Positions 4,168 through 18,767 of a DNA stretch of 20,892 nt are shown here, piece after piece. Position 1 is the first letter of the stretch. Each line of letters begins with the position of its first letter. This DNA comes from a virus: the IMG/VR virus record IMGVR_UViG_3300031658_000181, positions 1-20,892 of that record. One strand, written 5' to 3'. Below the pieces are notes generated by a model. The model was not told the DNA's origin. It did no database searches and worked only from the letters and a program-made list of their open reading frames with translations. The position numbers were made by a program, and so were the translations under genes.

Positions 4168-4217
4168 GAGTTAATCATGAGGAATTCCCCGTTTTACCCA
4201 TCGCGATCCCTATTTGA

Positions 4218-4228
4218 AAACGGCCCCC
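4218..4228 (-). repeat. GGGGGCCGTTT repeat, copy before the tail fibre gene
   Basis: The minus strand reads TAATTGGGGGCCGTTTTCAA, where TAA is the stop codon of the J-like gene. The 11-mer is identical to four others in the window and is 50 bases before the fibre ATG. Downstream, CCGTTTT (4217-4223) has an inverted partner AAAACGG (from 4189-4195), with the palindrome ATCGCGAT in the loop. The sequence is seen directly; a regulatory function is inferred. Confidence 0.8.
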
Positions 4229-4230
4229 AA

Positions 4231-6306
4231 TTATGCCGATTCAGTATAAACGACGTTCGTTTGATCCGACTCCGTATAGCCGCCCTTGAATGCTCTCGCG
4301 TAAATGGTTTGGCCATTGATCGGAACCGTCAACGGTGACGAATAAGCGCTGCCGTCCGTGTCCGTTACGATTGCCGCTGAAGTGCTGTATCGGATCGACG
4401 CGCCCGCCGTCGCGCATGTTAGCGAGACATCTTGAGGAAAGTAACCGTCTGGATATTCCCCACCGGACAGGGAGAACTGGACCGACTCGACCTTCGCCTG
4501 GTCGAATGTGGCAATAAGAGACTCTGAATCTTCGAAGTCATCCTTAAATGCTTTTGCTAAAAGAGTTTCCCCTTTCTCGACCGAGATGGCCGTTGAATAC
4601 GCGTTGCCATCGGTCACCGTGTTGATGGCGGTCCCGCGAGACCAGCGAATCGTCGCGCCATCAGTAGCGACCGCAAGCGTGATATTCGTTGGAAAGGATG
4701 TTCCAACAAGAACACCGGAAGCGGGCGTACTGGTGGGAGCGCTGACTTGCGGCGCATCTTCGGCGGTTTTCGTCCCTACCGTCACCGCCGTTTCCTCCGT
4801 GCTCTCGTCGAAAGTGTCGATGGCTGAGCTTGTTTCTCTTAATGACATTTGGACGCCGAGCTTTCCATCTCGCGACGCGGTGAGAGCCCACCCCAAGACG
4901 AGCGCCTCGGCCCCATTGAGAGGGAAGCGTGAACCCATCGAGATCGCTACAGGCTTGCCGCTGATAGCCCTTAGAGCTTCCCCGTCGAACACTCCAGACA
5001 TGCGCTTTTCGAGTTGCGCCCTTTTTAAAACCCTTGTCGCGAGGCGCTGCGCTTGGCTTGGTGAAGAGACTAAGCGGAGATCGAGATTAATAACCTTCTC
5101 GTCAGTGACGGCAGTTGCCGCCGCTTTGACGGTGGGGAAACTCGTTTTTTTCCAGTTGTTATCCGGCGCCAAGTAAGTCCCTTTGACGACTTCGACTTGA
5201 TCTTTTCGGGGAAGGCGAGTCTTGGAAGTGATGGCTCCAATCGCGTGCTTGGCCTCAATCGTGAACGTCGGCGTGACGTGCTTTCCCGCAATGAGGGTTT
5301 CGAGTCCGCCGAGGTTTGCGGAAACTCCGTCCATCGTGACGAGAAGGTCTTTTTCAAACGCTGACGGCTCGTTGCTTGTGTCGAAAACACCATGGCAGGA
5401 ATAGCGCGGCTCGGTCCCTCCGTAAACGGTAGCGACCGACTCGTCGCAAATGTCGGCCGCCGTCTTCACTGACTCGATATCGATGTCTGCCGTAGGGACG
5501 GCGCGCCCGTGGAGCTGGTTCGTTTTCCACCAATACCAAAGCAAAGCAGGGTTTGCCGTCCATCTTGTGACGCTGTCCCGAGGGTCGAGGACTTCGATTC
5601 CTTGGACGCGCGCTGAGATGTTTTCTACACCACGCGGGAAGACGGTGGCGGATTTCTGAAAAGCAAACACCGCGTAACAGATGCCCGTCAGCTTGTGGTC
5701 CGTGGTCCAGTGGGTGAGATTCGCGACCATGTTGTGATCCGCTACCGTCTGCGTCCCGTCGTACTTGCGAATGTACATGAACCCCGCAAATTTCGAGGAA
5801 TCCACGGAATACTTCCGCATCACGGGGTTTCCGTCATGAGTCGAGCCCACGGCGTCAAGCGCTGCTTGGTCCGCCACGAAGTAAAGTTTGCTTGTGCCAG
5901 TCCATCTCGTCTCGACGACGTAACACGGCGCGGTTTTCGGCGTGTAAATCGGGTGTCCATTCCCATCATTCGCAAGAGTTTCTAAGCAGATCAATTCCTC
6001 CTCCCAATAGAGGTAAGAGATTGTTGATTTTCCCTCGCAAAAGATCCCGGCGAAATAAAGAATATCGCTTGTCGGCGATGGTTTCGCCCGCTCAAAAGCA
6101 ATCATGCCAAGTCGCGTTTCGCCAAAAACAAACCGCCGAGCGGCGTCTGATTGTTGAACCGTGACCGTTTGGTTTTGGTTGTCGTTGAACCCGGGCTGAT
6201 CGTATAAGCCGCCAAACAACGAATTGAATATCCCCCCGATTAAATCGGCAGCGAAATTAAACACAGAGGAAACCGCGTCCACAATAAAATCTACCACGTC
6301 ACCCAT
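4231..6306 (-). CDS. Tail tip hub protein, J-like, with two C-terminal CHB_HEX_C-like domains
   Basis: This 691-residue protein sits last in the tail-tip cluster, as lambda J does. The N-terminus (1-35) is hydrophobic and amphipathic, followed by a hub-like region starting with RRFVFGETRLG at 57-67, a motif typical of phage tip proteins. The middle (about 230-490) fits the gp27/J-type hub core. The C-terminus carries two tandem repeats, about 530-602 and 610-688, each with the pattern DGATIRWS...TDGNAYS...LLAKAF, which matches the chitobiase/beta-hexosaminidase C-terminal beta-sandwich. The repeats probably project from the tip and could bind saccharides. The start overlaps the end of the previous gene by 8 bases less than one codon pair away and has no clear Shine-Dalgarno sequence. 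Confidence 0.78.
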   Translation of the reverse strand: MGDVVDFIVDAVSSVFNFAADLIGGIFNSLFGGLYDQPGFNDNQNQTVTVQQSDAARRFVFGETRLGMIAFERAKPSPTSDILYFAGIFCEGKSTISYLYWEEELICLETLANDGNGHPIYTPKTAPCYVVETRWTGTSKLYFVADQAALDAVGSTHDGNPVMRKYSVDSSKFAGFMYIRKYDGTQTVADHNMVANLTHWTTDHKLTGICYAVFAFQKSATVFPRGVENISARVQGIEVLDPRDSVTRWTANPALLWYWWKTNQLHGRAVPTADIDIESVKTAADICDESVATVYGGTEPRYSCHGVFDTSNEPSAFEKDLLVTMDGVSANLGGLETLIAGKHVTPTFTIEAKHAIGAITSKTRLPRKDQVEVVKGTYLAPDNNWKKTSFPTVKAAATAVTDEKVINLDLRLVSSPSQAQRLATRVLKRAQLEKRMSGVFDGEALRAISGKPVAISMGSRFPLNGAEALVLGWALTASRDGKLGVQMSLRETSSAIDTFDESTEETAVTVGTKTAEDAPQVSAPTSTPASGVLVGTSFPTNITLAVATDGATIRWSRGTAINTVTDGNAYSTAISVEKGETLLAKAFKDDFEDSESLIATFDQAKVESVQFSLSGGEYPDGYFPQDVSLTCATAGASIRYSTSAAIVTDTDGSAYSSPLTVPINGQTIYARAFKGGYTESDQTNVVYTESA

Positions 6307-6312
6307 ATTTTT

Positions 6313-6705
6313 CTAAGTTGAAGCCTCCCACCATTCCTCGACCAGCATCTTGTCGATTTCTCGCAAGCCTTTGCTGGAAATCATCCAAAGGGCTCCCCCA
6401 TCCCATACCGAAAGTGCAGGAGTCGTGCGATTGATTGAGATAATACCGATTGATCCTTGTTGGTTCGGTCCGTCCGATTTGCTCAGCCCAGACTCTGAAA
6501 ATAGCTTCCGGAAAAGCTCGCGGAGTTCCGGCCCGTGGAATGAATCGCTTAGTTCCTTTTCGGTTTTTGCGCGCAGGTTCGCAGGGGAAACCATCGCTTG
6601 CCCTGTCAGGCACTCGGCGGCGTCCATTGAAAAGGCCCAGCAATCCGAGATCCCCCATTGGAACTTCTTCCTCTTCCATTTCTGGATAACTTCAGAAATC
6701 ACCAT
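6313..6705 (-). CDS. DUF6950-family tail-tip protein (NlpC/P60-like position, lambda K analogue)
   Basis: I chose the ATG at 6703-6705 (130 aa) because a strong Shine-Dalgarno sequence, GGAGGGGG, lies five bases before it and because a 7-base overlap with the preceding gene is typical here; a longer reading from 6795 would add 30 arginine-rich residues from inside that gene. The protein has FQWGISDCWAF with Cys22, the conserved start of DUF6950, and later TPALSVWDGG and a C-terminal GL...EEWW pattern that I recall from that family. The family occurs at the place of the NlpC/P60-like K protein of lambda-type tails, between L-like and J-like genes. No clear catalytic histidine is visible, so peptidase activity is uncertain. 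Confidence 0.72.
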   Translation of the reverse strand: MVISEVIQKWKRKKFQWGISDCWAFSMDAAECLTGQAMVSPANLRAKTEKELSDSFHGPELRELFRKLFSESGLSKSDGPNQQGSIGIISINRTTPALSVWDGGALWMISSKGLREIDKMLVEEWWEAST

Positions 6706-7256
6706 TCCAGCCCCCTCCCTTGAATCTCCGTCATGCGAGAGAGCCCTTTGTCGCCTGCGTGTAATTCGTTTTGATCCTCTTGAGAGTAAAGCCAAGGTCG
6801 CCGTTTCGCTTTGTCAGAATCGGAAGACCTGGCAATCATCGTAACGACACTTTCTCCTCCTGATTCCGCCACGCTGTCCGCGTCCATAACTCCCTTGAAC
6901 AAGGTGAGCGGTCCCACAAGCGTCTCTTCATCGCCGGTGAGAACTCCAAGACGAATCGAAAAGGACCGGCCTTGATAATCCCCAAGGATTGTCGGGTCAA
7001 AAATGTTTGAGTCGAGGCCCGAAAGAGAAACAGTGACTTCATCGAGCCCGCCGTCGGTTCGTTCTTTGACCGCCGGGATCGAAAGGAGCGCGCCGACTCC
7101 TCGGTAGGTTTCCCCAGAAAATTCTCGAGTTCCGAGTCCTGACCAGATGCGAGTAATCCCAGCGGGAAAATCCGCGTCAATGAGGATTAAGAGCTTGATG
7201 ACGCGAGCTTGAAAAGCTGCCGCCATGCCGGAAGGAAGAACCCTTTCAGCGCTCAT
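6699..7256 (-). CDS. Tail tip protein, L-like (DUF2163-like)
   Basis: This 185-residue protein has the pattern LILIDADFPAGITRIWSGLG followed by FSGETYRGVGALLSI, VTVSLSGLD, and DYQGRSFSIRLGVL ... TLFKGVMD. This pattern of strands is characteristic of tip proteins in the lambda L / DUF2163 neighbourhood that attach between distal tail ring and hub. The start overlaps the previous gene's stop (ATGA), and its own end overlaps the DUF6950 gene by seven bases, so translation is probably coupled. The assignment to the tip is secure from context; the exact family name is recalled from memory. Confidence 0.7.
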   Translation of the reverse strand: MSAERVLPSGMAAAFQARVIKLLILIDADFPAGITRIWSGLGTREFSGETYRGVGALLSIPAVKERTDGGLDEVTVSLSGLDSNIFDPTILGDYQGRSFSIRLGVLTGDEETLVGPLTLFKGVMDADSVAESGGESVVTMIARSSDSDKAKRRPWLYSQEDQNELHAGDKGLSRMTEIQGRGLEW

Positions 7257-7873
7257 GAAAGAACCTCCCGCGCTCGAAAGCTAAAGCCTGACCCTCGCTG
7301 CTCGGTCGTCCATGACATCTCTGGGATGTCGCCTAGAAGCTTGAAAGTTCCGGTTGGCTGATCGAGAACTAAAGGCACATCGTTCGCCGGTGCTACCGCG
7401 AGCGCCCGCCATAAATTAACCGTTCCTGCTCCTGCCGCGTCGCTGACGACGTCCGTAGTCACCTCATGCAGGATTCCGCTAAGTGAGAACCAGTCGCCTT
7501 GAGCGAGCGCTTTGGCCTCGCTGACAGGAAGCCCGTTAATGTTGAGAGTCTTGCCAGTCTGTCCAGACCCGCTGACAACTGCGGTTCCTTTCCATCTCCC
7601 GAATGCGTCGAGGATCGCGCCTTTAGGTTTCTCTCCCCCGTATGGCGTCAAAGTGAATGTCCCTACCTGACCATCGACGCGCAAAAAGAACCCTCTCCAT
7701 TTCGCCTCTTCCTCGGCGGACAAAGAACGAACGGAAATGGTCACCTCTCGAATGCGAGCGCTCCAATCATAGATCTTTTGCGAATAATCAAACGAACCTG
7801 AAGTGCTCGAAACTTTCGCCAGTCGAGCCCATTTCATTTTGGTAATTCCAAAGTTTGGGAGAGTTTCGCTCAT
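7253..7873 (-). CDS. Distal tail / minor tail protein
   Basis: This 206-residue protein lies directly after the tape measure gene, three bases from its stop, where the distal tail or M-like protein is normally encoded. Its N-terminal half has the pattern expected of such proteins: a segment with DYSQKIYDWSARIREVTISV followed by LSAEEEAKWRGFFLRVDGQVGTF, where paired strands build the tail ring fold. The C-terminal half ends with FKLLGDIPEMSWTTEQRGSG. The sequence GAGG, ten bases before the ATG, could act as a weak ribosome binding site. No enzyme motif is seen. The role is inferred from position and pattern. Confidence 0.68.
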   Translation of the reverse strand: MSETLPNFGITKMKWARLAKVSSTSGSFDYSQKIYDWSARIREVTISVRSLSAEEEAKWRGFFLRVDGQVGTFTLTPYGGEKPKGAILDAFGRWKGTAVVSGSGQTGKTLNINGLPVSEAKALAQGDWFSLSGILHEVTTDVVSDAAGAGTVNLWRALAVAPANDVPLVLDQPTGTFKLLGDIPEMSWTTEQRGSGFSFRAREVLS

Positions 7874-7876
7874 AAA

Positions 7877-10771
7877 TTAAATTCCTCGGAATGCGTCCCT
7901 CTCTGGTCCTTGGTTCGTCACGGCGTTGATAACGCCAGCCTTGGCGCGCTCCTCGATCTCATGCGCCATCTCGCGGAGTCGCTCCGGTGTTGCGTCGTGG
8001 AAATTCTGGATGACGGTAACGCCAACGGATCCTTGCCCTTTCGTCTTGTCGATGACGTCCTCGTTAGGGTGGAGCATGGCAGCGAATCCGCCGCGTCCAT
8101 CAAGCCCGCCGATACGTGAGCCTTCGCCTGTGGATCCCCCACCCTCGAAAGATGGAGCGGAATTCATCCCGGCCATTTGACTTGCTCCGAATGCGAGCGC
8201 GGCCCCGGCGGCAGCGATGCCGAGAACGGGACCGATGACAGGAATTGGAGCCATGGCTTTATATGCGCCGATTGCCATGGCTTTCGTATTCATCGCGGCC
8301 TCGTACATCGCGCCCTTTCTCTGAATGACTGCCTGAGCGACGGAAGCCGCTTTGCCAATCGTGGCGATTCTTTGGTCGTGATGTCCCTGTAAGGTCGCGA
8401 GTTGGCCAAGGAAGTCTTTCCGGTCGCCTTGTAGAGCTCGACTCCGCGCCGCCTCGGATGACCTCAAAAGGTCGGTCCTTTGCTGCTCGGTGATTTTGGT
8501 CTCCGCGAGGATCATGTCCCGCTCGACCGAGTATTTATTGAGAATCTGCGCCTCTTCCGGAATGTATTGCCCCGCGATAGATCCAAAGCCTTCTTGGGAA
8601 AACGAGTCCTGACCGGCAAGCCCTGAAATTCCTTGGTCCGCGCTGGCGGTTCCCACCATTCCACCCATCGCGATGCCCGCAAGACCTCCTTTGAATGCGG
8701 TCTTGATTTTGCCCGCGCTTTCCATAGCTGCCGAGACTGCGCCTTTTGATTTGTGGAGTCCCGCCGCTAATCCATCCATGACATTTCCGCCGATGCCCAT
8801 GAAGACCCGGGAAGGGGATTTAATCCCGAACAAATCTTTCACGCCATTCGTTAAATCTTTGGCTACGTTTTTAGCGGCATTGATCGGCATCATTGCGGTG
8901 TCTTTCAAGCCTTGCGCAAAGCCCTTCATGATTTGAATCCCGATGGCCTTGAGATCAATCGAGGAGAAGATCTTAACAAACTGATCCCTCCACCCTAGAG
9001 CGACCGCCTTGGCAGCGTCGAGCGCGTGACTGATCACGCCGCCGAGACCTTCCCAGATAGTTTTCTGTCCGGAAATAACGGCAGCAAGTTCCGAGAACAC
9101 GCCAGCGACGAGCGTAAAAGCCGCGCTTACGGTGGTCGCGATTTGATCCCATCCAGCTTTGATGAACACGAAGGCGATTTCCCAAGCTCCCTTCATGCCG
9201 CCAATCGGCTCAAGAAATTCGTCCAGCTTGGTGATGATCCCGCCGAGCGCGGTTTGGATTGATCCACCGATGGAAACGAGAGATTCTTTGATTGATGCCC
9301 ATGCGGTGGACATTGCCGCGATTGCCGCCGCGTTTCTCACCTTCCAGTTTTCGAATTGAACTAGAGCGGCTTGCACCAAAGCAATCGCGCCCGCTTTGAC
9401 TTTATCCCAATTAGCGATCAGCAAGGCTCCAACTCCAATCACCGCGATTATCGCGAGACCGACCGGACCTGTCAGGACGCCAGCAACAAGCCCGAAAGCG
9501 CCAGTAAGCCCGCCAGCAGCGCCAGCAGCGCCAGTAAGGAAAGGGATAATCGGAGCAGCTACGGTGATCATAGCGCCAAAAGCAATAAGCAGCGGACCAG
9601 CTACCGCGAGCAAGCCAGCGAAAGCGAGGCCCACTTGAAGGACGGCAGGATCGAGGTTGCCCAGCTCCGTCGCAATGGAGGACAATCCATAAACTAAAGG
9701 GAGAATGGCAGGAATGATCTGATCTCCAATCTGCACCGCAAGACTGCTCATTGCGACCGAGAGCTTAGCAAAGCCTCGCCCTGGTCCTTTGTCGATTTCC
9801 TCGAACGCCGCGACCATCGCGCCCGTGCTTCCCGTTACGGCGTCGATATTCTCCCGCCATTGATCGGTGTTTTCCGCAAGATCGAGCATCAAAAGGATGG
9901 CTTCTTTTCTGCCAAAAGCTTTAGCAATGACGGTTGAGTTTCCTTTCGCGGCTTTGCGAAGTTTCAATAAAGTATTCGTCAGGCCGTTCGCTTCGATCTC
10001 CGCTTTAGCGTTCGCGATCCCGGCGGTATCGAGAAGGTCGCTCATGTCTTTCGACGGTTTCAAGATTGCTCCCATTGCCGAACTGATCCTCGTAACGGCT
10101 CCAGCCGTGGAGTCTGAAACTTTCGAGGTTCGCGCTAAGATCCCGAGAAGCTCTTTCGATTCGACCCCTAGCGCCGCCGCCATGCTACTTGCGTTCGGCA
10201 ATGCGGACGCAAGCTGATCAAAATCCGTCACTCCGTTTTTCACGGTGGCGAATAGCTGGTCGGAAAGTTCTTTGGCAGAAACGGATTTATCCCCGTATGC
10301 GTCCATCGTTTTAGTCAAGAGACCAACGGAAGTTTCAAGATTCGAAACGCCAGCAACGGCAGCTTGTCCAGCAATAGCGAGAAACGAAGTCAGCTCCTCT
10401 TGTGGAATTCCCGCAGAGATCGCTTGATATGCCGCCGCCGCGCCGTCTTTGAGATCGAGGCCTAGCGCGGCGGACGTGGTCCGGATCTCATCTTTCAAAT
10501 CCTTGAAGCCTTGTTGCGGTAATCCGATCAGAGAATTTACCTCTCTCATCGCATCGTCAAAATCCGCCGCCATTTTCCCGCTGACTAAACCGATTCCTAG
10601 AATTGGCGCGGTTAATCCCGCCGTCATGTTTTTCCCAGCGCTCTTGAATTGGGAACCAACGCGCTGCATTTGCTTTTTCGACTTCGAAATCGCCCGTTGG
10701 ATATCCTTTGGAAGTTCCGAGCCATCAGCTCGAAGATTCCAGAAAACATTGCCGACCGAGATTTTAGCCAT
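7877..10771 (-). CDS. Tail tape measure protein
   Basis: At 964 residues this is the largest gene in the window and follows the tail chaperone pair, as expected. Residues about 60-340 form the PhageMin_Tail / TP901 core (FDDAMREVNSLIGLP, AAYQAISAGI, LGVESKELLGILARTSK). A long glycine/alanine-rich hydrophobic stretch at about 370-455 probably crosses or inserts into the host membrane during DNA ejection. Further on, KDLFGIKSPSRVFMGIGGNV is a classic tape-measure motif, and a second hydrophobic patch is near 865-895. At roughly 1.5 angstrom per residue, the known rule for such proteins, the tail would be about 145 nm. There is no Shine-Dalgarno sequence; a GGGGGCCGTTT copy lies 50 bases before the ATG. 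Confidence 0.93.
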   Translation of the reverse strand: MAKISVGNVFWNLRADGSELPKDIQRAISKSKKQMQRVGSQFKSAGKNMTAGLTAPILGIGLVSGKMAADFDDAMREVNSLIGLPQQGFKDLKDEIRTTSAALGLDLKDGAAAAYQAISAGIPQEELTSFLAIAGQAAVAGVSNLETSVGLLTKTMDAYGDKSVSAKELSDQLFATVKNGVTDFDQLASALPNASSMAAALGVESKELLGILARTSKVSDSTAGAVTRISSAMGAILKPSKDMSDLLDTAGIANAKAEIEANGLTNTLLKLRKAAKGNSTVIAKAFGRKEAILLMLDLAENTDQWRENIDAVTGSTGAMVAAFEEIDKGPGRGFAKLSVAMSSLAVQIGDQIIPAILPLVYGLSSIATELGNLDPAVLQVGLAFAGLLAVAGPLLIAFGAMITVAAPIIPFLTGAAGAAGGLTGAFGLVAGVLTGPVGLAIIAVIGVGALLIANWDKVKAGAIALVQAALVQFENWKVRNAAAIAAMSTAWASIKESLVSIGGSIQTALGGIITKLDEFLEPIGGMKGAWEIAFVFIKAGWDQIATTVSAAFTLVAGVFSELAAVISGQKTIWEGLGGVISHALDAAKAVALGWRDQFVKIFSSIDLKAIGIQIMKGFAQGLKDTAMMPINAAKNVAKDLTNGVKDLFGIKSPSRVFMGIGGNVMDGLAAGLHKSKGAVSAAMESAGKIKTAFKGGLAGIAMGGMVGTASADQGISGLAGQDSFSQEGFGSIAGQYIPEEAQILNKYSVERDMILAETKITEQQRTDLLRSSEAARSRALQGDRKDFLGQLATLQGHHDQRIATIGKAASVAQAVIQRKGAMYEAAMNTKAMAIGAYKAMAPIPVIGPVLGIAAAGAALAFGASQMAGMNSAPSFEGGGSTGEGSRIGGLDGRGGFAAMLHPNEDVIDKTKGQGSVGVTVIQNFHDATPERLREMAHEIEERAKAGVINAVTNQGPERDAFRGI

Positions 10772-10821
10772 AGCGAAAGACTGATGAATGATGGCGGAAT
10801 AAGCCTTAGATCGGGATCAAG

Positions 10822-10832
10822 AAACGGCCCCC
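10822..10832 (-). repeat. GGGGGCCGTTT repeat, copy before the tape measure gene
   Basis: On the minus strand this copy follows the GT stop codon by one base (TAATGGGGGCCGTTTCTTG) and ends exactly 50 bases before the tape measure ATG, the same spacing as the copy before the fibre gene. Just downstream lies GATCCCGATC, an imperfect palindrome. The copy is outside both coding regions. Confidence 0.8.
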
Positions 10833-10833
10833 A

Positions 10834-11474
10834 TTAATCCAGAGTCACCCCTAGTTCACGGAAGATATTTTTCTCTTCCATTTTTCCAGTCAAGGAAGCT
10901 CGCGAAGTCGCCAGAAGTTTCCCGACAAGGAATCCTTGGCGGTTCTTTTCAATGGCGATCTCATCTTCGAGCGCTTCGACCTGCTCGGTTGAGAGGCCTC
11001 GCCATTCCTTCCAGGTTATCCCGCAGGCTCTTCGGAGTCTGGCCCATTCTCTGAGGAGGCTGGCTCGGTCGAGGATAGTTCCGGCTTTCCCGGCTTCTCT
11101 TCTTCGCCCCCGATAACAACGTCATCATTCGCGCCTTCTGCGTCCTCTAAGAAGCTCTCAAGCTGAATAGCAACCTCTTTCCAAGGGGAATGTTTGAGAA
11201 CCTCAATAAAGGTCTCTTGCATCTCTTGTTGAAGTGTCGCCTCCTGCTCTTCGTCTTCGTCCGTTCCCTTGAAGATCAAAAGAACAAGCTGTTTCGGAGT
11301 CGCCTTGCCTCGATTCTGGCAACATGCCCAGAGGAAGGTCGTAACGAACGCGTCAAAGCGATCGGAATCGGGACCGTCAAACCCCTCAGAAGAGAGGTCG
11401 AACGCTGCCCCGCGATCCCATCGAAATTTCAGCTCGGTCTTTTTGTCTACCTTCCATCGAATAACTTTGCTCAT
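10834..11474 (-). CDS. Tail assembly chaperone fusion GT, made by -1 programmed frameshift
   Basis: The zero frame is G up to codon 130 (AAG at 11085-11087); slipping back one base on GGGAAAG (11085-11091) continues into an open frame ending with TAA at 10834-10836. The product would be 213 residues, the last 83 starting AGTILDRASLLREWARLRR. This extension has no start codon of its own near its beginning and contains the tryptophan-rich CGITWKEWRGLSTEQVEAL segment, typical of T domains that recruit tape measure protein. In lambda the fusion is made in a small fraction of rounds and is required for tail assembly but absent from the virion. The heptamer is the same one lambda uses. The frameshift is inferred from sequence and synteny. 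Confidence 0.85.
11016..11474 (-). CDS. Tail assembly chaperone G
   Basis: This 152-residue protein lies between the major tail gene and the tape measure gene, the standard place of G. The N-terminal 100 residues form a compact domain (VIRWKVDKKTELKFRWDRGAAF, FDAFVTTFLWACCQN); the C-terminus is acidic and low in complexity (EEEKPGKPELSSTEPASSENG), the linker over which the frameshift occurs. In siphoviruses G coats the tape measure during assembly. Its ATG lies inside a 15-base stretch that is perfectly complementary to the capsid 3' region, and no Shine-Dalgarno sequence precedes it. Confidence 0.82.
   Translation of the reverse strand: MSKVIRWKVDKKTELKFRWDRGAAFDLSSEGFDGPDSDRFDAFVTTFLWACCQNRGKATPKQLVLLIFKGTDEDEEQEATLQQEMQETFIEVLKHSPWKEVAIQLESFLEDAEGANDDVVIGGEEEKPGKPELSSTEPASSENGPDSEEPAG
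11085..11091 (-). other. Slippery heptamer GGGAAAG for -1 frameshifting
   Basis: In the frame of G the codons read G GGA AAG, so the heptamer fits X XXY YYZ, and both tRNAs can re-pair as GGG AAA one base back. The sequence equals the lambda G/GT slippery site (Xu, Hendrix and Duda described such shifts as conserved across tailed phages). The phase was checked against the G stop at 11016 and the GT stop at 10834. Confidence 0.87.
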
Positions 11475-11484
11475 TGGTGTTATC
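11470..11484 (-). promoter_or_regulatory. Start region of G, complementary to the capsid 3' region
   Basis: On the minus strand this reads GATAACACCAATGAG, with the G start codon ATG at 11472-11474. It is the exact reverse complement of the 15 bases just 5' of the capsid terminator stem. Pairing would cover from ten bases before ATG to five bases into the gene, which would block initiation. Complementarity is seen directly; regulation is inferred. Confidence 0.45.
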
Positions 11485-11492
11485 GGTGAGGA

Positions 11493-11936
11493 TTAGCTGA
11501 TGTCAGATGGAACGATAGCGCCAGAGATGCGAATCTCTCCGGAGATTTGAAGCATTTCTTCCGATCCAGCGTAATTCGGCTTGGAGAATTTCTTCAAGAA
11601 GCCAGTGAATTCCTTGCGCTCGCCCGTGGAAAGCTGCGTGGCGTCGATGCGGAAGTTTCGAGTGGTTCCAGCGTCAAAAGATGTCTGAAGACTCGCGGCA
11701 ATCGCTTTATCCGCTGCCTCGTTGTCATAGTGACCAACGAAAGAGAAAGTGCCGTTGTCGAGAAGCCCGGACGTGAACTCCTTCACTTTTCCGGTCGTGC
11801 ACGAATCCGTTGTTTCCACTTCGCCCCACTCCCCTTCGGGCTCGGTGAGTTCAGTAAAGCAGATTGAATCCCATTGCCCAGGGGTCACTACGTTTTCAAC
11901 AAAGAGTTTAGTTCCTTTTCCGATGAGTTTGGCCAT
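11493..11936 (-). CDS. Major tail (tube) protein
   Basis: This 147-residue protein lies between the tail terminator and chaperone G, where the tube protein is encoded. It has the expected features of a gpV-type tube subunit: an early KGTKLFVENV strand, ITELTEPEG-like loop and ETTDSCTTGKVKEF at about 40-54, then a GTFSFVGHYD strand and a long FTGFLKKFSKPNYAGSEEMLQ region near the C-terminus. No extra Ig-like decoration domain is present. The leader is TAAAAAA before ATG, where TAA is the previous stop, and has no Shine-Dalgarno sequence. The nearest repeat copy is inside the preceding gene, 114 bases upstream. Confidence 0.85.
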   Translation of the reverse strand: MAKLIGKGTKLFVENVVTPGQWDSICFTELTEPEGEWGEVETTDSCTTGKVKEFTSGLLDNGTFSFVGHYDNEAADKAIAASLQTSFDAGTTRNFRIDATQLSTGERKEFTGFLKKFSKPNYAGSEEMLQISGEIRISGAIVPSDIS

Positions 11937-11940
11937 TTTT

Positions 11941-12390
11941 TTAGGTAGTAGGAGTCCAATGAATGCGCAGATCGATGCGCCTAAAAGGACTCGTTAATTC
12001 CCCGTCAGTGTCCACCGCTTCGTTCTCATCTGGTCCGTTGTCAGATATGAAAACGGCCCCCATATCGATATCAGCGTAGGCTCCGTCAATGAATGAGACG
12101 TGATCAGTGACCGCCTTGTGAATGCCGTCCAACTCTTCCATGTCCTGCGCGTAAAGGTCGATTTGCACCGTTGTTTCGTAAGTCCCCACCTCCCCGCAAG
12201 AATCGTATTTGATCGGCGTGACGACATGATGCCAGACCAGAAAGGGAGCCTGTGCTTCTTGCGGAGCGCGGTTCCTGAAAAGCGCGGGGATGTTCCCATC
12301 TTCTCCCGGGAAAGAAGTCAAGAGGGTCGAGATGTTCGGCGTAGCAATTAGCAGCGCTTGGAATCCGCTGGCGAAGTTTTCGAGGTCCAT
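11941..12390 (-). CDS. Tail terminator protein (DUF3168 / gpU-like)
   Basis: This 149-residue protein matches the small alpha/beta tail terminator fold: an N-terminal helix (FASGFQALLIATPNI), APFLVWHHVVTPIKY, then the strand TTVQIDLYAQDMEELDGIHKAVTDHV, typical of DUF3168 proteins, and a final FRRIDLRIHW strand. Tail terminators cap the tube and join it to the neck. The gene overlaps the previous stop by one base (TAATG). It contains one repeat copy coding for part of DMGAVFIS, the only copy well inside a gene. Confidence 0.78.
   Translation of the reverse strand: MDLENFASGFQALLIATPNISTLLTSFPGEDGNIPALFRNRAPQEAQAPFLVWHHVVTPIKYDSCGEVGTYETTVQIDLYAQDMEELDGIHKAVTDHVSFIDGAYADIDMGAVFISDNGPDENEAVDTDGELTSPFRRIDLRIHWTPTT
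12051..12061 (-). repeat. GGGGGCCGTTT repeat inside the tail terminator gene
   Basis: Here the 11-mer is fully coding (ATG GGG GCC GTT TTC, giving MGAVF) and lies 114 bases before the major tail protein ATG. CCGTT at the motif is matched downstream by AACGG (from 12035-12039), giving a short inverted repeat. Exact conservation inside a coding region suggests selection at the DNA or RNA level, though coincidence cannot be excluded for one copy. Confidence 0.65.
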
Positions 12391-12863
12391 TATTTATTGA
12401 GTTTTGCGGCTTCGATCATGCTGAATTTCCTGAGCTCCTCGACGAAGATCTTCTGCATGTTTTCTTTTTCGGATTCGAAGGATTTACGAAGGACGGAATA
12501 AGGCTGAGTCCGGATCTTCTTTCCTCGTCGCGTTGCCGTCCCGCCGTACTCGATCCGGCGTCCGTGGTTTGAGGATTTATACATTCTGCCGAGCCATTTT
12601 ACCGGGATAGTGGAATCCCATCCGGCGTAAGCTAAAGTCACTTGATTCCCCCGGTATGACTTCACCGCGAGACGAAGCGCTTTCGTGTTCCCATCGAGCG
12701 CGGGAATCCCCTTTGCGATCTGGCGGGCCGCGACTAAGCCAGGGCGCGCCGCTTTTTTCATGGCTCGCACTTTCGAGGTTCTCGCGATCTTCTCGAACAA
12801 GTTCTCCATGTTGGAGGATGCTTTTTTGAATGAGGTCTTTTTGAGCGATAGCAAGGCCATCAT
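12390..12863 (-). CDS. Neck protein, HK97 gp10-like
   Basis: This 157-residue basic protein lies between head closure and tail terminator genes. Its pattern of an N-terminal helix (NLFEKIARTSKVRAMKKAARPGLVAARQIAKGIP), a central strand region (LAVKSYRGNQVTLAYAGWDS) and a GRRIEYGG...PYSVLRKSFESEKENMQK tail is typical of HK97 gp10 / minor tail Z-like proteins, which connect head and tail. Two ATG codons are possible, 12861-12863 and 12858-12860; a strong GGAGG precedes both, and the second has the better spacing (7 bases), which would make the protein one residue shorter. The start overlaps the stop of the preceding gene. Confidence 0.77.
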   Translation of the reverse strand: MMALLSLKKTSFKKASSNMENLFEKIARTSKVRAMKKAARPGLVAARQIAKGIPALDGNTKALRLAVKSYRGNQVTLAYAGWDSTIPVKWLGRMYKSSNHGRRIEYGGTATRRGKKIRTQPYSVLRKSFESEKENMQKIFVEELRKFSMIEAAKLNK

Positions 12864-13228
12864 TTCACCTCCATTTCCACTTTCACCTGGAGGAATCGCG
12901 CTCTTTCAGATTCGGTCTCTAAGGCGAAACCTCGCACTAAATGAGTCTCCTCCGGGATGTCCGGCATGGGAGAAAATTTGATCCTCCACTTTCCAGAAAT
13001 CTTCGAGGCAAGATCAGATTCAAAGCGCAACGTGATGACTCCACCGCGCCGCTCTTGATCCTGTTTCTCGACGCTTCGGATGTCTCCCTCCATTGAGAGC
13101 TTATCCGGCTCGTAAGAGCCCATGACAGCCACGGAACCCCATTGCTTCCAAACGGCTTTCGTGCTTCCCGCCGAGGTCAAGCGAACCTCGCGATATTGAA
13201 GCGTCATTGGTATTCTGAGACGCTTCAT
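12860..13228 (-). CDS. Head closure / head-tail joining protein
   Basis: This 122-residue protein fits the SPP1 gp16 / HK97 gp7 type of head-tail joining proteins in size, position and pattern: LQYREVRLTSAGSTKAVWKQWGSVAVMGSYE, then a central charged stretch, GGVITLRFES and a C-terminal strand pair. The start overlaps the preceding stop as ATGA. The paralogue-like WKQWGSV...E element corresponds to the conserved W..... vwA.v...s pattern of this family. It probably closes the connector after packaging. Confidence 0.75.
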   Translation of the reverse strand: MKRLRIPMTLQYREVRLTSAGSTKAVWKQWGSVAVMGSYEPDKLSMEGDIRSVEKQDQERRGGVITLRFESDLASKISGKWRIKFSPMPDIPEETHLVRGFALETESERARFLQVKVEMEVK

Positions 13229-13788
13229 ACAATTCCATTGATGTTCGCGATCCTCATGGGTCGGAGGAAGTTTTTCATAGCCCGAACGAAGTCTCCTTCG
13301 GTGTCTCCCGGATGTTCAAAGAGATGCTTGGTGAATCTCTCCACGGCAGAAATCAAAACGCCGTCAACGTCGGCGCGTGTCGCCACGCCTGCCATGTATT
13401 CGATAACGATAGCATCCTCTGCCGTGTCGATCAGCACGATGTCAGTCGTTGCGAGTAATCGCGCGGGCTCCAATCCGAACGCCTCGCGGTATCCAGTCGA
13501 TCCCATGATATCCGTGACGACGTCAGAGACGCGCGCAGTAGCGAGCGTGACGGACGAAACAGGACCGCTCCTGAGTTCCAAGCCTTTCGTTGGCCACGCA
13601 GAATAAATAACTCTGCGCTTTTGGCTTAAAAGACTGCGATGCGTCCAAGATTCGACCCAATGCGTAGCGCCCGCAAGAGCTGTTTGGCATTCGACCAACT
13701 GGCCGGAATAGGCGGCGCACATTGCGAGCAACTCCGCATCGGTGAAGAGCGCGGCAGGCTTTTCAATGACGGTGATTGCCTCTAGCAT
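13225..13788 (-). CDS. Head-tail connector, HK97 gp6-like
   Basis: This 187-residue protein is the first connector gene after the capsid module. It has the helical pattern of gp6-like adaptors: ACQTALAGATHWVESWTHRSLLSQ-like region at about 33-57 (the segment where these proteins read a..a...ie..tgr.l), then LRSGPVSSVTLATARVSD, a common strand pair, and a C-terminal helix VLISAVERFTKHLFEHPG. It would form the ring under the portal. Its ATG overlaps the previous stop (TAATG), so coupling is likely. Confidence 0.8.
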   Translation of the reverse strand: MLEAITVIEKPAALFTDAELLAMCAAYSGQLVECQTALAGATHWVESWTHRSLLSQKRRVIYSAWPTKGLELRSGPVSSVTLATARVSDVVTDIMGSTGYREAFGLEPARLLATTDIVLIDTAEDAIVIEYMAGVATRADVDGVLISAVERFTKHLFEHPGDTEGDFVRAMKNFLRPMRIANINGIV

Positions 13789-14015
13789 TAGACTGCTTTT
13801 TTATCGGTTTTCTTGGCGGTCGTCTTCTTCTCGCTAGCGACCTTGGCGGGCTTCTCGGTTTTGACAGATGGCGCATCTTGAGCGAGACGGGGAACCATGA
13901 CGCCGAGCTCGTCGGCAGTAAGATCGAGATCTTTTTTGTCCGGCACGATATCACCACGGAAAACGGTTTTTCCACGGAAGATACAGCTATTAACTTGAAT
14001 TTGAATTTGTTTCAT
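13788..14015 (-). CDS. Small head-associated protein with lysine/alanine-rich tail (75 aa)
   Basis: I chose the ATG at 14013-14015; the longer reading from 14057 would begin inside the terminator. The first 45 residues (IQIQVNSCIFRGKTVFRG ... LTADELGVMVPRLAQ) resemble small phage proteins with a beta-barrel-like core often found between capsid and connector genes; the rest is a basic, low-complexity tail rich in Lys, Ala and Thr, ending TAKKTDKKAV. The function is unknown; a minor head role is inferred from position. The leader CCAACAAAATCAAAAA runs directly into the ATG and matches the holin leader at 14 of 16 positions. Confidence 0.68.
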   Translation of the reverse strand: MKQIQIQVNSCIFRGKTVFRGDIVPDKKDLDLTADELGVMVPRLAQDAPSVKTEKPAKVASEKKTTAKKTDKKAV

Positions 14016-14041
14016 TTTTTGATTTTGTTGGAATATGAGAG

Positions 14042-14078
14042 AAAAAAAGAAGGGCAAGGGCGAACCCCCACCCTTCTT
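14042..14078 (-). terminator. Intrinsic terminator after the capsid gene
   Basis: On the minus strand AAGAAGGG (14071-14078) pairs with CCCTTCTT (14047-14054), and an inner GGG-TTCG-CCC hairpin extends the stem. A run of seven T (14042-14048) follows. This is a clear Rho-independent terminator 20 bases after the capsid stop codon. It would end or attenuate transcripts right after the most abundant structural protein. Confidence 0.88.
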
Positions 14079-14093
14079 GATAACACCAATGAG
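14079..14093 (-). promoter_or_regulatory. Putative antisense seed in the capsid 3' region, targets G start codon
   Basis: The minus strand reads CTCATTGGTGTTATC directly 5' of the terminator stem. It is the exact complement of GATAACACCAATGAG at the start of chaperone G. A single-stranded seed beside an intrinsic terminator is the usual architecture of small RNAs derived from mRNA 3' ends. No transcript has been shown; the RNA and its role are inferred. Confidence 0.42.
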
Positions 14094-14098
14094 AATGT

Positions 14099-15448
14099 TT
14101 AAACGAGAATATCGTCAAGAACCTCGAACTCTTCAGGGTGTTCAACATTCACGTCCATATAGGTTGTGGCTACGAGAGTGTTGAGACCTTCTTTGATTCC
14201 GGTGTAAGGATCCGACTTGAGAACGATTCCGCCCCATTGCGCAACCATCAGAGAAGCCCAGTTGCCTAGGATCGCTGTGTGAGTGTTGCCGCTTGAGGTT
14301 CCTTTCGTTCCGGTGGTCGGCAGCGTGTGTGAATACGCGTAAGGATGACCGGCGAGCATGCCAGGACGTGACTCGTCGATGAGGAACTTTCCAGATCCAG
14401 AATCAAGCAGCGTGTTTTGCAGCTTTTCCTCTGCGCCCGGAGTGAGCAAGTAGGACCAGTTTTGAGGACGAGCCTTCGAAACCTTAAGTCTCTTCTGCAT
14501 CGCGATTGCGAGAGCGCGGGTGAGTGCGCCGCCGTTGGTAGCGATTCCTTCAATGTTGATCCCGGTAATGTTGAGAAGACCTTCAGGGATGACGCCGGCA
14601 CCGGATCCGGTGAGAGCATAATCATCAACCTTCAGGGCAATCTCGGTCGCGAGATAGTTACGAAGCCACATCTCGACAGACTGCGAAGACTGCATAAGAA
14701 GTTGATCCGAGACATTGACGAATGCCGGGATACGGTGAGGCGTCATATCAAAACTTCCGAAAGTAACGGTAAGCTCGTCAGCGGTGGCGTTCTCGCCTTT
14801 TGCGACTGGCTTGGCGCTGGATCGGATCGCACGGGGAAACTTCACGTTTCCTTCAAGTCCGGTGAGGAAGGTTGCTCCGAGCTGGCGAACTTGAAGGCTC
14901 TCCATCAGAATATCAATGAAGGGACGAAGTTCGGTATCAATCAAAACTCCGCCTGCGCTGGCAGTGCCTGCAATGTGGTCGTTTTGCGGGCGGCGAGTGC
15001 CAGCCTCAAGAACGATTTGAGGAACACCAATTCCACCGGCCTCAATCGAGAGTCCAGCGGCTTTAGCATCTTTCGCGGCTTCCTGTGCCATCTCTGCTTC
15101 AACTCCGTCAAGAGCGATGCGGGGATTGTTAGCGGCAGCGGCAGCGCGAACGAAGGAGAAGCCTGAAACGTCTCGTTGGTCGCCGTTGCTCAAGCCGGTA
15201 TTAGCGGGAGGCGCGACGAGAGCGGGAGCGCTTGGAGTTGCGGCGGCGGTAGCGGTAGCGAGAGCGCCCGTATTACCAGAAGCAGCAGCAGCTTGCTTTC
15301 GTGCGATTTTAGAATCGAGAGCTTTGATTTCGGCTTCGACGGTTTCCCACTCCGTTTCCTGAACATCCGTAAGGTTGTCGGCATCGGCGAGGATTTGCAT
15401 TTGTGCCTGAAGTTCGGCGCGTTTGGCTAGTAGGGCTTGGAGGTCCAT
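14099..15448 (-). CDS. Major capsid protein, HK97 fold
   Basis: This 449-residue protein follows the protease gene. Residues 1-55 are a coiled-coil scaffolding (delta) domain (LLAKRAELQAQMQIL, ETVEAEIKALDSKIARK), followed by an alanine/proline-rich linker at 56-95 that the protease is likely to remove together with it. From about residue 160 the HK97 fold is recognisable: GGVLIDTELRPFIDILMESLQVRQLG, FPRAI, GENATADELTVTFGSFDMTPHRIPAFVNVSDQLLMQSS and the C-terminal LGNWASLMVAQWGGIVLKSDPYTG. The start is preceded by AATTATTAATTT with no Shine-Dalgarno sequence, and a GGGGGCCGTTT copy is 64 bases upstream. Confidence 0.94.
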   Translation of the reverse strand: MDLQALLAKRAELQAQMQILADADNLTDVQETEWETVEAEIKALDSKIARKQAAAASGNTGALATATAAATPSAPALVAPPANTGLSNGDQRDVSGFSFVRAAAAANNPRIALDGVEAEMAQEAAKDAKAAGLSIEAGGIGVPQIVLEAGTRRPQNDHIAGTASAGGVLIDTELRPFIDILMESLQVRQLGATFLTGLEGNVKFPRAIRSSAKPVAKGENATADELTVTFGSFDMTPHRIPAFVNVSDQLLMQSSQSVEMWLRNYLATEIALKVDDYALTGSGAGVIPEGLLNITGINIEGIATNGGALTRALAIAMQKRLKVSKARPQNWSYLLTPGAEEKLQNTLLDSGSGKFLIDESRPGMLAGHPYAYSHTLPTTGTKGTSSGNTHTAILGNWASLMVAQWGGIVLKSDPYTGIKEGLNTLVATTYMDVNVEHPEEFEVLDDILV

Positions 15449-15499
15449 AAATTAATAATTTCGAGTATTAGAATGCATGAAGGAATTTGAGGGGCAGAA

Positions 15500-16261
15500 T
15501 TAGGCGATTGGAAAACGGCCCCCTTGAATTGCCAGCGCCTTCGCTTGGCGTTGACGTTTTGCTTTCGCCGCTAATGATGGATCGGGAATGATAGCTTCCG
15601 GTTCCTTCTTTTTGGCGGACTTGAGCTTAACGACGCGATCAGCGAAACCAGCGTCAACCGTCTCTTGCGCGCTCATGAATGTTTCAGCCGCGACGAGCGC
15701 CTCGATCTCCACGCGGTCGATAGAAGTTCGCTCTTCGTAGATATCAATAATCCCGGCGGTCGTCTTTTCGAGCCAGTCAGCAATTTCCCGAGCCTCTTCA
15801 GCGTTCGCGTAGAAAAGCATGGATGCTCCGTGAACCATGAATTGGGAGCCCGTGACCATCTCGATTTCATCGCACCCCAGGGCAATCACTGTTGCGATAG
15901 AGGCGCAGATCCCTTCGACCTTTGCGGTGATCTTCGCATCGTGCGCGGAAAGAATGGCAGCGATCCCGAGGCCCATGAAGACATCACCGCCCCCGCAGTT
16001 GATACGAACCTCGAGAGTTTCCCCTTCAAATCCCCGGAGCGCTACCGCGACATCTTGGTCGGTGATCATCCAGCCGATTGAGTCGTAAATTTCAAGGTAT
16101 GCTTTCCCGTTCGCATCTTCGTGAATCTTCAGAGAGGAATATTCCCCTGTGTCATCATCGTAAAAATTCAATGGATCATTTTCATTCTTGAGACGCGCCT
16201 TGATGTTCTTGGCATGCTTTTTTGCGAAGGTCTTAAACCCTCGCGGAAGTTTCATTTTCAT
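15500..16261 (-). CDS. Prohead protease, ClpP-like (S14 type)
   Basis: This 253-residue protein has the ClpP fold: RINCGGGDVFMGLGIAAIL at about 87-104 (the usual NSPGG is NCGGG here), the nucleophile Ser121 in GICASIATVIALG, and His144 in FMVHGAS. An acidic third residue would lie in the following helices. It is expected to cut the capsid delta domain during maturation. The start overlaps the portal stop by one base (TAATG); MKMK offers two close starts. The last codons contain a GGGGGCCGTTT copy that codes for GGRF. The C-terminal basic tail (AAKAKRQRQAKA) may mediate entry into the prohead. Confidence 0.9.
   Translation of the reverse strand: MKMKLPRGFKTFAKKHAKNIKARLKNENDPLNFYDDDTGEYSSLKIHEDANGKAYLEIYDSIGWMITDQDVAVALRGFEGETLEVRINCGGGDVFMGLGIAAILSAHDAKITAKVEGICASIATVIALGCDEIEMVTGSQFMVHGASMLFYANAEEAREIADWLEKTTAGIIDIYEERTSIDRVEIEALVAAETFMSAQETVDAGFADRVVKLKSAKKKEPEAIIPDPSLAAKAKRQRQAKALAIQGGRFPIA
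15513..15523 (-). repeat. GGGGGCCGTTT repeat, copy before the capsid gene
   Basis: This copy is coding, CAA GGG GGC CGT TTT CCA, near the end of the protease gene, ten bases from its stop, and lies 64 bases before the capsid ATG. It reads in a different codon phase from the copy in the tail terminator gene, so conservation cannot come from a shared peptide. Confidence 0.75.
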
Positions 16262-17499
16262 TATTCTTGTTCGGTCCGGTTGATTGTTTGCGTGACTGTC
16301 TCCTCGTTCATCGGTCCAAAGAATTCGTCACCTCCCTCGTAAGGATTCCAGTCCTCAAGCTTGCGGGCTTCGTTTGGATTCATCACGCGCTTGCCGAGGA
16401 GGACGTTATAGAACTCTGCGCGGTCCTTCATGGTTCCTCGAAGGAGCGCGTTAAGGTTGAACTTTAGGAAGTAGCCCGCTGCGCGCTCGGCGCGTGTGAG
16501 AACGCGGGTAAATTCGGCCTCGAAGAGGCAGGCAATAGGAGCGAGAACGTCGGTAACAGATTCGATTTGCTGCGCTTCAATGTTCGCCTTGATCGCATTA
16601 TCGAGGATTCCAACCTTGTGCGGAGGAACGCGGAGCATCCGGCAGATGGCAAGCGCTTGATCCTTCCGATTACTGGAGAATTCAAGTTCCTGATAGTTGC
16701 GCTTTGGCTCCCAAGGCTTCAGGCCGGAATCAAGAACGGTCGTCTTGAGCCTGCCGAGGAGAGTCCCCACGCCGCTCTTGAGCCATGTGGAAACGCGAGT
16801 AAATGCCGTCTCGGACATCTCGTTATCCGTGACCAGAAGGTTAGGAAAGCGGACATTCTCAGAGAAGGTGAACCCGGCGTCGCGCTCCAGGGCAATCGCA
16901 AGACCGATACATTCCCGCGCGTAATCTCCGAACCGGCAAGGGTTGACGCCATCGAAGGACAAGCCCTTGATATGAAGGATATCGGCACGTTCAAGAATCG
17001 TGTTTTGGTCGATCTTGTAAACGATCCGGCCTGAAGTATCCGGCTGATTGTTCGCATTGAACCGCAGTCTCTCGACTCGCGAAGGATGGATCGGAACAAA
17101 GCCCATCACCTTTCCCAAAAGATTCCTGATTACCTGGCAATAAGACTCGTTGTAAAGAGCGTGTTGAGCCTCAAGAGAAGACAGCATGTCCACCCTGTTA
17201 ATCTCCTCATGAGGTCCATCGAGCGCGAGCGCGACGGGATGCTCGCGAGCGGTCCGCGTGTTTTCCCCGACGGATTGCAGGAGCTTGAACGGCAAGTGAC
17301 CAATCATTGAAGCCCGCCATTGAACGCAAGCGAACACGGTAACGACCCCCATGGCCTTTTCAGGAGTCACGGTGATTCCCACCGATGACGCTGCGCCGAT
17401 AATGTCCGCGATGGACTCACCGACGAGAGCGCCGGAATCAATCAGCCCGTCAGAAGCGGAATTCTCGGGGCGGGATTTTTTACGAAAGAGGCCGAACAC
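16261..17499 (-). CDS. Portal protein, HK97 gp3 type
   Basis: This 412-residue protein matches HK97-type portals: N-terminal MFGLFRKKS, then KAMGVVTVFACVQWRASMIGHLPFKLL at about 48-74, ILHIKGLSFDGV in the middle, FSSNRKDQALAICRMLRVPPHKVG at about 273-296, and the C-terminal N-x-NEARKLEDWNPYEGGDEFF motif. It forms the dodecameric ring for DNA packaging. The start is GTG at 17497-17499, only nine codons after an in-frame TAG, and there is no Shine-Dalgarno sequence; a GC-rich hairpin lies just upstream. A repeat copy lies 53 bases before the start. Confidence 0.92.
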   Translation of the reverse strand: MFGLFRKKSRPENSASDGLIDSGALVGESIADIIGAASSVGITVTPEKAMGVVTVFACVQWRASMIGHLPFKLLQSVGENTRTAREHPVALALDGPHEEINRVDMLSSLEAQHALYNESYCQVIRNLLGKVMGFVPIHPSRVERLRFNANNQPDTSGRIVYKIDQNTILERADILHIKGLSFDGVNPCRFGDYARECIGLAIALERDAGFTFSENVRFPNLLVTDNEMSETAFTRVSTWLKSGVGTLLGRLKTTVLDSGLKPWEPKRNYQELEFSSNRKDQALAICRMLRVPPHKVGILDNAIKANIEAQQIESVTDVLAPIACLFEAEFTRVLTRAERAAGYFLKFNLNALLRGTMKDRAEFYNVLLGKRVMNPNEARKLEDWNPYEGGDEFFGPMNEETVTQTINRTEQE

Positions 17500-17502
17500 T
17501 AC

Positions 17503-17524
17503 GGCGGGGATAATACCGCCCGCC
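17503..17524 (-). promoter_or_regulatory. GC-rich hairpin just before the portal start codon
   Basis: On the minus strand GGCGGG (17519-17524) can pair with CCCGCC (17503-17508) across a 10-base loop, ending three bases before the portal GTG. There is no T run, so it is not an intrinsic terminator. It could limit ribosome access or stabilise the mRNA end. Seen in sequence; function inferred. Confidence 0.4.
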
Positions 17525-17552
17525 TATTTTCTAGGCTGATAGTCGTTTTTGG

Positions 17553-17563
17553 AAACGGCCCCC
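17553..17563 (-). repeat. GGGGGCCGTTT repeat, copy before the portal gene
   Basis: The minus strand reads TAATTGGGGGCCGTTTCCAA, where TAA is the stop of the 85-residue gene; the arrangement TAATT plus the 11-mer is the same as in the copy before the fibre gene. It lies 53 bases before the portal GTG. CGTTT of the motif is followed by AAACG, giving a small inverted repeat. Confidence 0.8.
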
Positions 17564-17826: not shown

Positions 17827-18198
17827 TCACTCTACTTGAAGGTGATCTGAAACTTGGGATTCAAAGAATGGTGTCGGTTTCTGAACCGACAGCTCATCTA
17901 ACTCATGAGCCAACTCCATGCATCTCCAGAACTTCAAAGCCTCGTCTCCAATTATCGAAAAATAATTAGGATCATCCAAATCCGAGCAACCCCAGTTCAG
18001 CGAATCCTTCCCGTGCTGCTCGAACTCTTGCGCGGCCTGCATGACGCAATAGTCATCCACGTAACACCCGAGAACATCCATGACTTCCCCGTGTATATCG
18101 TCCTTTTCCCTGTCGTTCGCTTGAATTCTTAAAGAGAGCGCTTTAAGTTTAGTATCCTGATCGGTCGTTAATAGTGCGTATTCATTTTCTTCATTCAT
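17827..18198 (-). CDS. Hypothetical acidic protein (123 aa)
   Basis: The family is not recognised. It is an acidic, mostly helical protein; residues about 14-45 (DTKLKALSLRIQANDREKDDIHGEVMDVLG) may form a coiled coil, and three cysteines occur at CYVDDYC and near WGC. The start overlaps the end of the two-HTH gene by four bases (ATGA), which suggests translational coupling and possibly a partnership with that regulator. No signal peptide or membrane segment is seen. Confidence 0.68.
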   Translation of the reverse strand: MNEENEYALLTTDQDTKLKALSLRIQANDREKDDIHGEVMDVLGCYVDDYCVMQAAQEFEQHGKDSLNWGCSDLDDPNYFSIIGDEALKFWRCMELAHELDELSVQKPTPFFESQVSDHLQVE

Positions 18199-18767
18199 GA
18201 TTCGTCTGGCTTTAGGTGCTTGGGATAACGGTGAGTTCTCCTTTGAAGGTCTACCGTTTGAAATTTAACCTCCAGAAACAGCGCGACGGAAGCGAAAAAT
18301 ACCTCTCTTGTGATTCCATGCTGTCCACTCTCTGAATGCTTTACGGTCCCGACATGAACGCCGAGAGAACCGGCCCATTGAACCGCACTCATATTGCAGG
18401 CCTCCCGCATCGAAAAAAGAACTTGCGAGACCTCAAGCGGCAGAGATTTAATTGACTGCGTCGTCGTTCCGATCTTCACCACCTCCCAGATTCCGCCGCC
18501 GTCGATAGCCCCCGCGACATTCCCGCAGAGGAGAATATCGAGGCTTTTGAACGCATCGAGTTGATGAACTCCGCAGAGCGCCAGCCAGTTAATCGTCTTA
18601 ATGCTCCGCTTGCCGATCTCCCGCCGCTTGATGGTTTTGACATCGACGCCAAGGACCGCCGCAAGTTTGAGCTGTGACAAGCCGAGGGTGTCGCGCCGTG
18701 CCTGAGCGTACCTCCGACCAGTGACTTTCCGCTGACCCATTAACTCTTTGCTTGGTTCCCTTCTCAT
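18195..18767 (-). CDS. Putative DNA-binding regulator with two helix-turn-helix domains
   Basis: This 190-residue protein has two XRE-like helix-turn-helix units. The first is at about residues 19-66, with SQLKLAAVLGVDVKTIKRRE (31-50) as the HTH core; the second at about 114-165, with SAVQWAGSLGVHVGTVKHSE (127-146). Both have the order helix, A-x-x-L-G-V turn, T-[IV]-K-[RH] recognition helix, so they probably arose by duplication. A tandem HTH protein can bind an asymmetric site as a monomer. It lies between large terminase and portal, an unusual place for a regulator; its ATG is one base past the terminase stop, with GAAGAG as a weak binding site. The target is unknown. Confidence 0.75.
   Translation of the reverse strand: MRREPSKELMGQRKVTGRRYAQARRDTLGLSQLKLAAVLGVDVKTIKRREIGKRSIKTINWLALCGVHQLDAFKSLDILLCGNVAGAIDGGGIWEVVKIGTTTQSIKSLPLEVSQVLFSMREACNMSAVQWAGSLGVHVGTVKHSESGQHGITREVFFASVALFLEVKFQTVDLQRRTHRYPKHLKPDES

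Follow-up and report, generated by a model that had tools for sequence, protein, structure and literature searches.

A 17-nt one-orientation repeat ahead of structural genes in a phage late operon, a possible late-promoter element

Why does a densely packed run of phage structural genes carry the same short word five times, always in one orientation and always ahead of a gene start? The window (the whole 20,892-bp stretch of DNA analysed here, probably a fragment of a phage genome) contains exactly five copies of the 11-mer GGGGGCCGTTT, all of them on the minus strand, on which all called genes of the record are encoded, and none on the plus strand. Both the coordinates of the copies (4218-4228, 10822-10832, 12051-12061, 15513-15523 and 17553-17563) and their restriction to the coding strand agree with a preliminary description of the sequence, which had also suggested a count of mismatched copies. 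This count, which like the others covers the 20,892-base record, returned zero copies with one mismatch, and the inner words GGGGGCC and GGCCGTTT are absent from either strand of the record outside the five copies. Five dispersed copies of any 11-mer were reached in none of 300 first-order Markov sequences, in which no word exceeded three, so the claim that the copies outnumber chance expectation was upheld. As a yardstick, 7 of 149 fetched loci (a non-random sample, each locus at least 10 kb long) contain an 11-mer that is likewise dispersed in five or more copies, indicating that repeated short words are not unique to this record. The combination of five copies, a single orientation and placement before genes throughout was seen in none of the fetched relatives.

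The gene set is that of a standard siphovirus late operon, with terminase, portal, Clp-type protease, HK97 capsid, connectors, tail tube, chaperones, tape measure and tail tip (Table 1). The distances from the copies to the next start codon, given previously as 50, 50, 114, 64 and 53 nt in order of coordinate, were all reproduced by measurement, and three copies directly follow stop codons as described (TAATT at 4218 and 17553, TAAT at 10822). The summary that one copy stands before each main structural gene was a little too tidy: the five copies do precede such genes, but the tail-tip genes have no copy. Likewise, the gene following the first copy does start 50 nt downstream, but its designation as a fibre gene is only positional because it has no family match in Pfam or PHROGs. 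Three of the five copies lie in intergenic gaps, and the copies at 12051 and 15513 are within coding sequence. These two, E3 and E4, sit in different reading frames and in protein segments that show no conservation towards the nearest relative, which argues for a constraint on the nucleic acid and not on the protein. All five copies are located 40-120 nt before a start codon, as are 8.9% of random positions; five of five at this distance has a probability of 5.4e-6 with the copies treated as independent and with a range that was picked after the distances were known. In the region preceding the tape measure gene, the window probably encodes a -1 frameshift tail chaperone pair of the G/GT type (10834-11121 on the minus strand, overlapping 11016-11474), in which the frameshift extension is a 95-codon open frame that overlaps the tail chaperone gene, carries the slippery heptamer GGGAAAG within the overlap and stops just before E2.

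Table 1 Coordinates of the element copies and of the neighbouring features in the window
Feature	Position	Strand	Remarks
E1 GGGGGCCGTTTTCAAAT	4212..4228	-	Directly after TAA+TT of the tail-tip (J-like) gene; fibre-like gene 50 nt on
E2 GGGGGCCGTTTCTTGAT	10816..10832	-	Directly after TAA+T of the tail chaperone frameshift extension; tape measure 50 nt on
E3 GGGGGCCGTTTTCATAT	12045..12061	-	Within the tail terminator gene, codons ATG GGG GCC GTT TTC; tail tube 114 nt on
E4 GGGGGCCGTTTTCCAAT	15507..15523	-	Last protease codons, GGG GGC CGT TTT; capsid 64 nt on
E5 GGGGGCCGTTTCCAAAA	17547..17563	-	Directly after TAA+TT of a small gene; portal 53 nt on
Fibre-like gene	2284..4167	-	After E1; named by position
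Tape measure	7877..10771	-	After E2; PhageMin_Tail, E=8.6e-24
Major tail tube protein	11493..11936	-	After E3; weak Phage_TTP_11, below cut-off, E=5e-4
Tail terminator gene	11941-12390		Contains E3
Intrinsic-terminator-like hairpin	14047..14078	-	Strong; just 3' of the capsid gene, with a stem of 14 bp and a T run; z -3.7
HK97-type major capsid protein	14099..15448	-	After E4; E=2.9e-31
Protease gene	15500-16261		E4 at its 3' end
Portal protein	16261..17499	-	After E5; E=2.2e-62
190-aa tandem helix-turn-helix protein	18195..18767	-	Between the terminase and portal genes

The conserved site is longer than previously described: all five copies match the 17-nt sequence GGGGGCCGTTTYYNNAW, so that conservation reaches about 6 nt beyond the 11-mer core. 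For the six columns beginning at the second base after the core, the conservation was equalled in 0 of 100 shuffles, and the same comparison among the five copies revealed no conserved columns upstream of the core. The A that the copies had been noted to share five positions after the core is invariant in all five. With a weight matrix the copies score 28.8 to 33.3 and the next-best site, register-shifted matches on the five copies left out, scores 13.0; this gap indicates an all-or-none set of five near-perfect copies without intermediates. No second motif at a fixed spacing, including a -10-like box, was found around the five copies, in which the conserved block adjoins the core only; the missing -10-like box still leaves room for a single-block promoter. 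The five contexts also exhibit no shared or unusually stable RNA fold (z -0.9 to +1.0). The orientation, the position, the sharp conservation and the freedom from reading frame show that the five copies are a nucleic-acid signal, and the lack of a shared fold favours DNA over RNA, which supports an element that acts at the DNA level.

Among the three candidates between which the preliminary description had made no choice, a DNA-level regulatory site, either a promoter or a stoperator, thus retains its standing, whereas an RNA processing or stability signal is weakened. We tentatively regard the five copies as one phage-specific transcription signal, most plausibly the core of late promoters, and give this function a little less than an even chance. 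In such a system, a phage-encoded factor would recognise the 17-bp asymmetric site and transcription would start a short distance downstream, adding initiation before the portal, capsid, tail tube, tape measure and fibre-like genes within one long late operon. The factor might be an activator, a sigma factor or an RNA polymerase not seen in this fragment, or else the tandem helix-turn-helix (HTH) protein of the operon itself; both the initiation by the element and the identity of its reader are inferred. The packing of the operon speaks for late promoters. The structural cluster has 2% noncoding DNA, and most gene junctions overlap or leave gaps of a few bases, while every gap of 51-66 nt in the cluster is found at an element. 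The untranslated stretch downstream of the gap elements is 50-53 nt long, which would give room for a transcription start plus a leader, and the terminator-like hairpin after the capsid gene would make internal initiation useful. That sigma-70-like promoters are not in excess in the region (8 found vs 11.0 expected) also speaks for them. Counting against late promoters are the missing -10-like box and the tail tube copy, which lies within a gene and 114 nt from the start. In addition, neither a sigma factor nor an RNA polymerase of phage type is among the family matches in the record, outside which the early region lies. Sigma-54-type and T7-type promoters were judged by eye and set aside, as spacing and flanks fit poorly.

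The 190-aa protein contains two diverged HTH repeats, at about residues 23-66 and 115-156. The first half matches HTH_3, and the second half weakly matches HTH_31 and sigma-70 region 4. The repeats are mutually similar (score 56 vs 23.4 +/- 4.5 in shuffles, 0 of 1000 as good) and are clearly duplicates of each other. The protein is an orphan for which our searches found no relatives, it has no sequence relation to known repressors including those of Cluster A, and its structure prediction without an alignment was of too low confidence for use (mean pLDDT 32). It is a plausible candidate for the reader of an asymmetric site.

If the copies were instead sites of the stoperator type, each would be bound by a monomer of a repressor encoded by the phage, plausibly the tandem HTH protein, which would block passing RNA polymerase and keep the structural genes silent in a lysogen. 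The asymmetric site and its single orientation relative to transcription agree with such a roadblock, as may its location in short gaps for three of the five copies, and so does a protein with two duplicated HTH copies, which resembles the logic of the Cluster A repressors. However, a late operon is an odd location for the gene of an immunity repressor, the HTH protein is without sequence relation to known repressors, and the record contains no integrase or other temperate sign. Since a roadblock does not call for the additional 50 nt or so of untranslated sequence found behind every gap element in this packed operon, the late promoter is somewhat favoured, and we consider stoperators possible but rather unlikely. 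A more specific proposal, which we hold to be distinctly improbable, combines elements of both readings: the late-operon HTH protein would read the 17-bp site as a single chain and by orientation alone start or block transcription for each head or tail module, forming a stoperator-like or feed-forward system with an origin independent of the mycobacteriophage one.

At the RNA level, the word could tag the transcript for a protein or a small RNA, or mark a processing or stability site between late genes. It is strand-specific, lies mostly at gene ends and would always be transcribed, provided that the operon forms a single unit; against this, the five contexts share no fold, Rfam has no match for the element and its complementary word is absent from the record, and we deem such a signal doubtful, more so than either use of the HTH protein. 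The copies also stand at module borders and their near-identity could mean recent spread, as expected for a recombination or module-boundary sequence or for a dispersed non-regulatory repeat, but a 17-nt stretch offers little length for homologous recombination, two of the copies lie within genes, and orientation and distance to the start are constrained, all of which makes this origin very unlikely. In other phages the same word forms the 3' arm of GGCCCC...GGGGCCGTTT hairpins, visible in the unrelated contigs L191 and L192, so that the element might be half of an intrinsic terminator. GGCCCCC is absent from the coding strand of the window, however, and the partner arm is therefore missing at all five sites; without this arm or a stable fold, an intrinsic terminator at these copies is refuted and we assign it practically no probability.

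Searches with the capsid, terminase, portal and HTH proteins recovered distant kin only, at about 30-36% protein identity; the closest, L113 and L195, are 31-36% identical to the window in their terminase, portal, protease and capsid proteins. Copies in related phages, for which the preliminary description had proposed to look, did not turn up: the element is absent from every relative found, which counts against late promoters, although the collection searched may lack records very near the window. Scans of bacterial genomes yielded no relative. Motif scans of IMG/VR returned 62 and 17 stretches, which were rejected as kin sites: apart from one integrase group they look like single chance copies or copies within terminator hairpins. 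One record (L072) has two copies at gene ends, but we estimate that chance alone would produce about one record of this sort in the set scanned. In the integrase group, tandem pairs of the 11-mer adjoin a phage-type integrase gene (L086 7691-7956, on the opposite strand; also L037, L043 and L066); they could be integrase or regulator sites and were not taken as equivalents because the arrangement differs. Repeats in the nearest relatives L006, L007 and L113 were dismissed likewise, being mostly coding or tandem. A systematic search of the relatives for one-orientation words before genes returned nothing beyond an A-rich sequence at start sites (L185) and weak words in three copies.

Several other repeats were encountered in these sequences. 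In the closest relative, the gap preceding the portal gene contains imperfect 10-bp tandem repeats resembling TTGAGTTTCG (L113 2363-2459). L106, L191 and L192 carry repeats of about 23 nt around TGTCAGCGAGA in 7-9 copies per 11-14 kb, mostly in one orientation and often followed by C-rich stretches; they resemble a further set of promoters or stoperators specific to a phage. The unrelated viral contig L056 has six copies of the perfect 15-mer GTCCGGGTAATGGAC, five of them in one orientation.

If confirmed, the element would offer a way into the late gene control of a phage without a cultured close relative; its sequence would predict which genes are separately boosted and point to one candidate DNA-binding protein. 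It would also tell whether asymmetric sites read by monomers, which to our knowledge are known in detail only from mycobacteriophages, arose outside them. Phages P2 and Mu use several late promoters that each stand before a structural operon and that all depend on a single phage activator (Ogr and C, respectively). The sites of these activators have dyad symmetry and are combined with a host -10 box; neither was seen in the element described here. The layout matches that of phages phiEco32 and 7-11, which have about six low-copy, highly conserved motifs of ~9-12 bp on the coding strand upstream of structural genes (PMC4331800), and this match speaks for late promoters. The likeness lies in the few conserved coding-strand motifs before structural genes; the sequence differs (tAATGTAtA in phiEco32), and the phiEco32-like motifs are read by a known phage sigma factor whereas the reader here is only a candidate (PMC4331800). 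The start-associated sequences of Cluster K mycobacteriophages are 13-bp, asymmetric, mostly in one orientation and tied to gene starts, with unknown function (PMC3203893), and in being short, one-way and linked to gene starts they resemble our element. Those sequences, however, lie 3-7 bp before the start codon, include a Shine-Dalgarno core and occur in the non-structural genome half alone (PMC3203893), in contrast to an element that is 50-114 nt from the start, precedes structural genes only and contains no AGGAG. The stoperators of Cluster A mycobacteriophages such as L5 number more than 20 13-bp sites genome-wide including promoter regions, unlike the five copies seen here, all before structural genes, and our candidate reader, whose gene is part of the late operon, has no sequence relation to their repressors. 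Those sites are nevertheless likewise short, asymmetric and in one orientation, many in short gaps, and the repressors of this cluster (183 aa in L5) bind them as monomers through one HTH at the N terminus and a further HTH-like domain, an architecture of two DNA-binding domains and a size similar to those of the 190-aa candidate (PMC9283540). The repeat is real and well placed for a regulatory role; its sequence is new, but phages are already known to carry elements of this kind.
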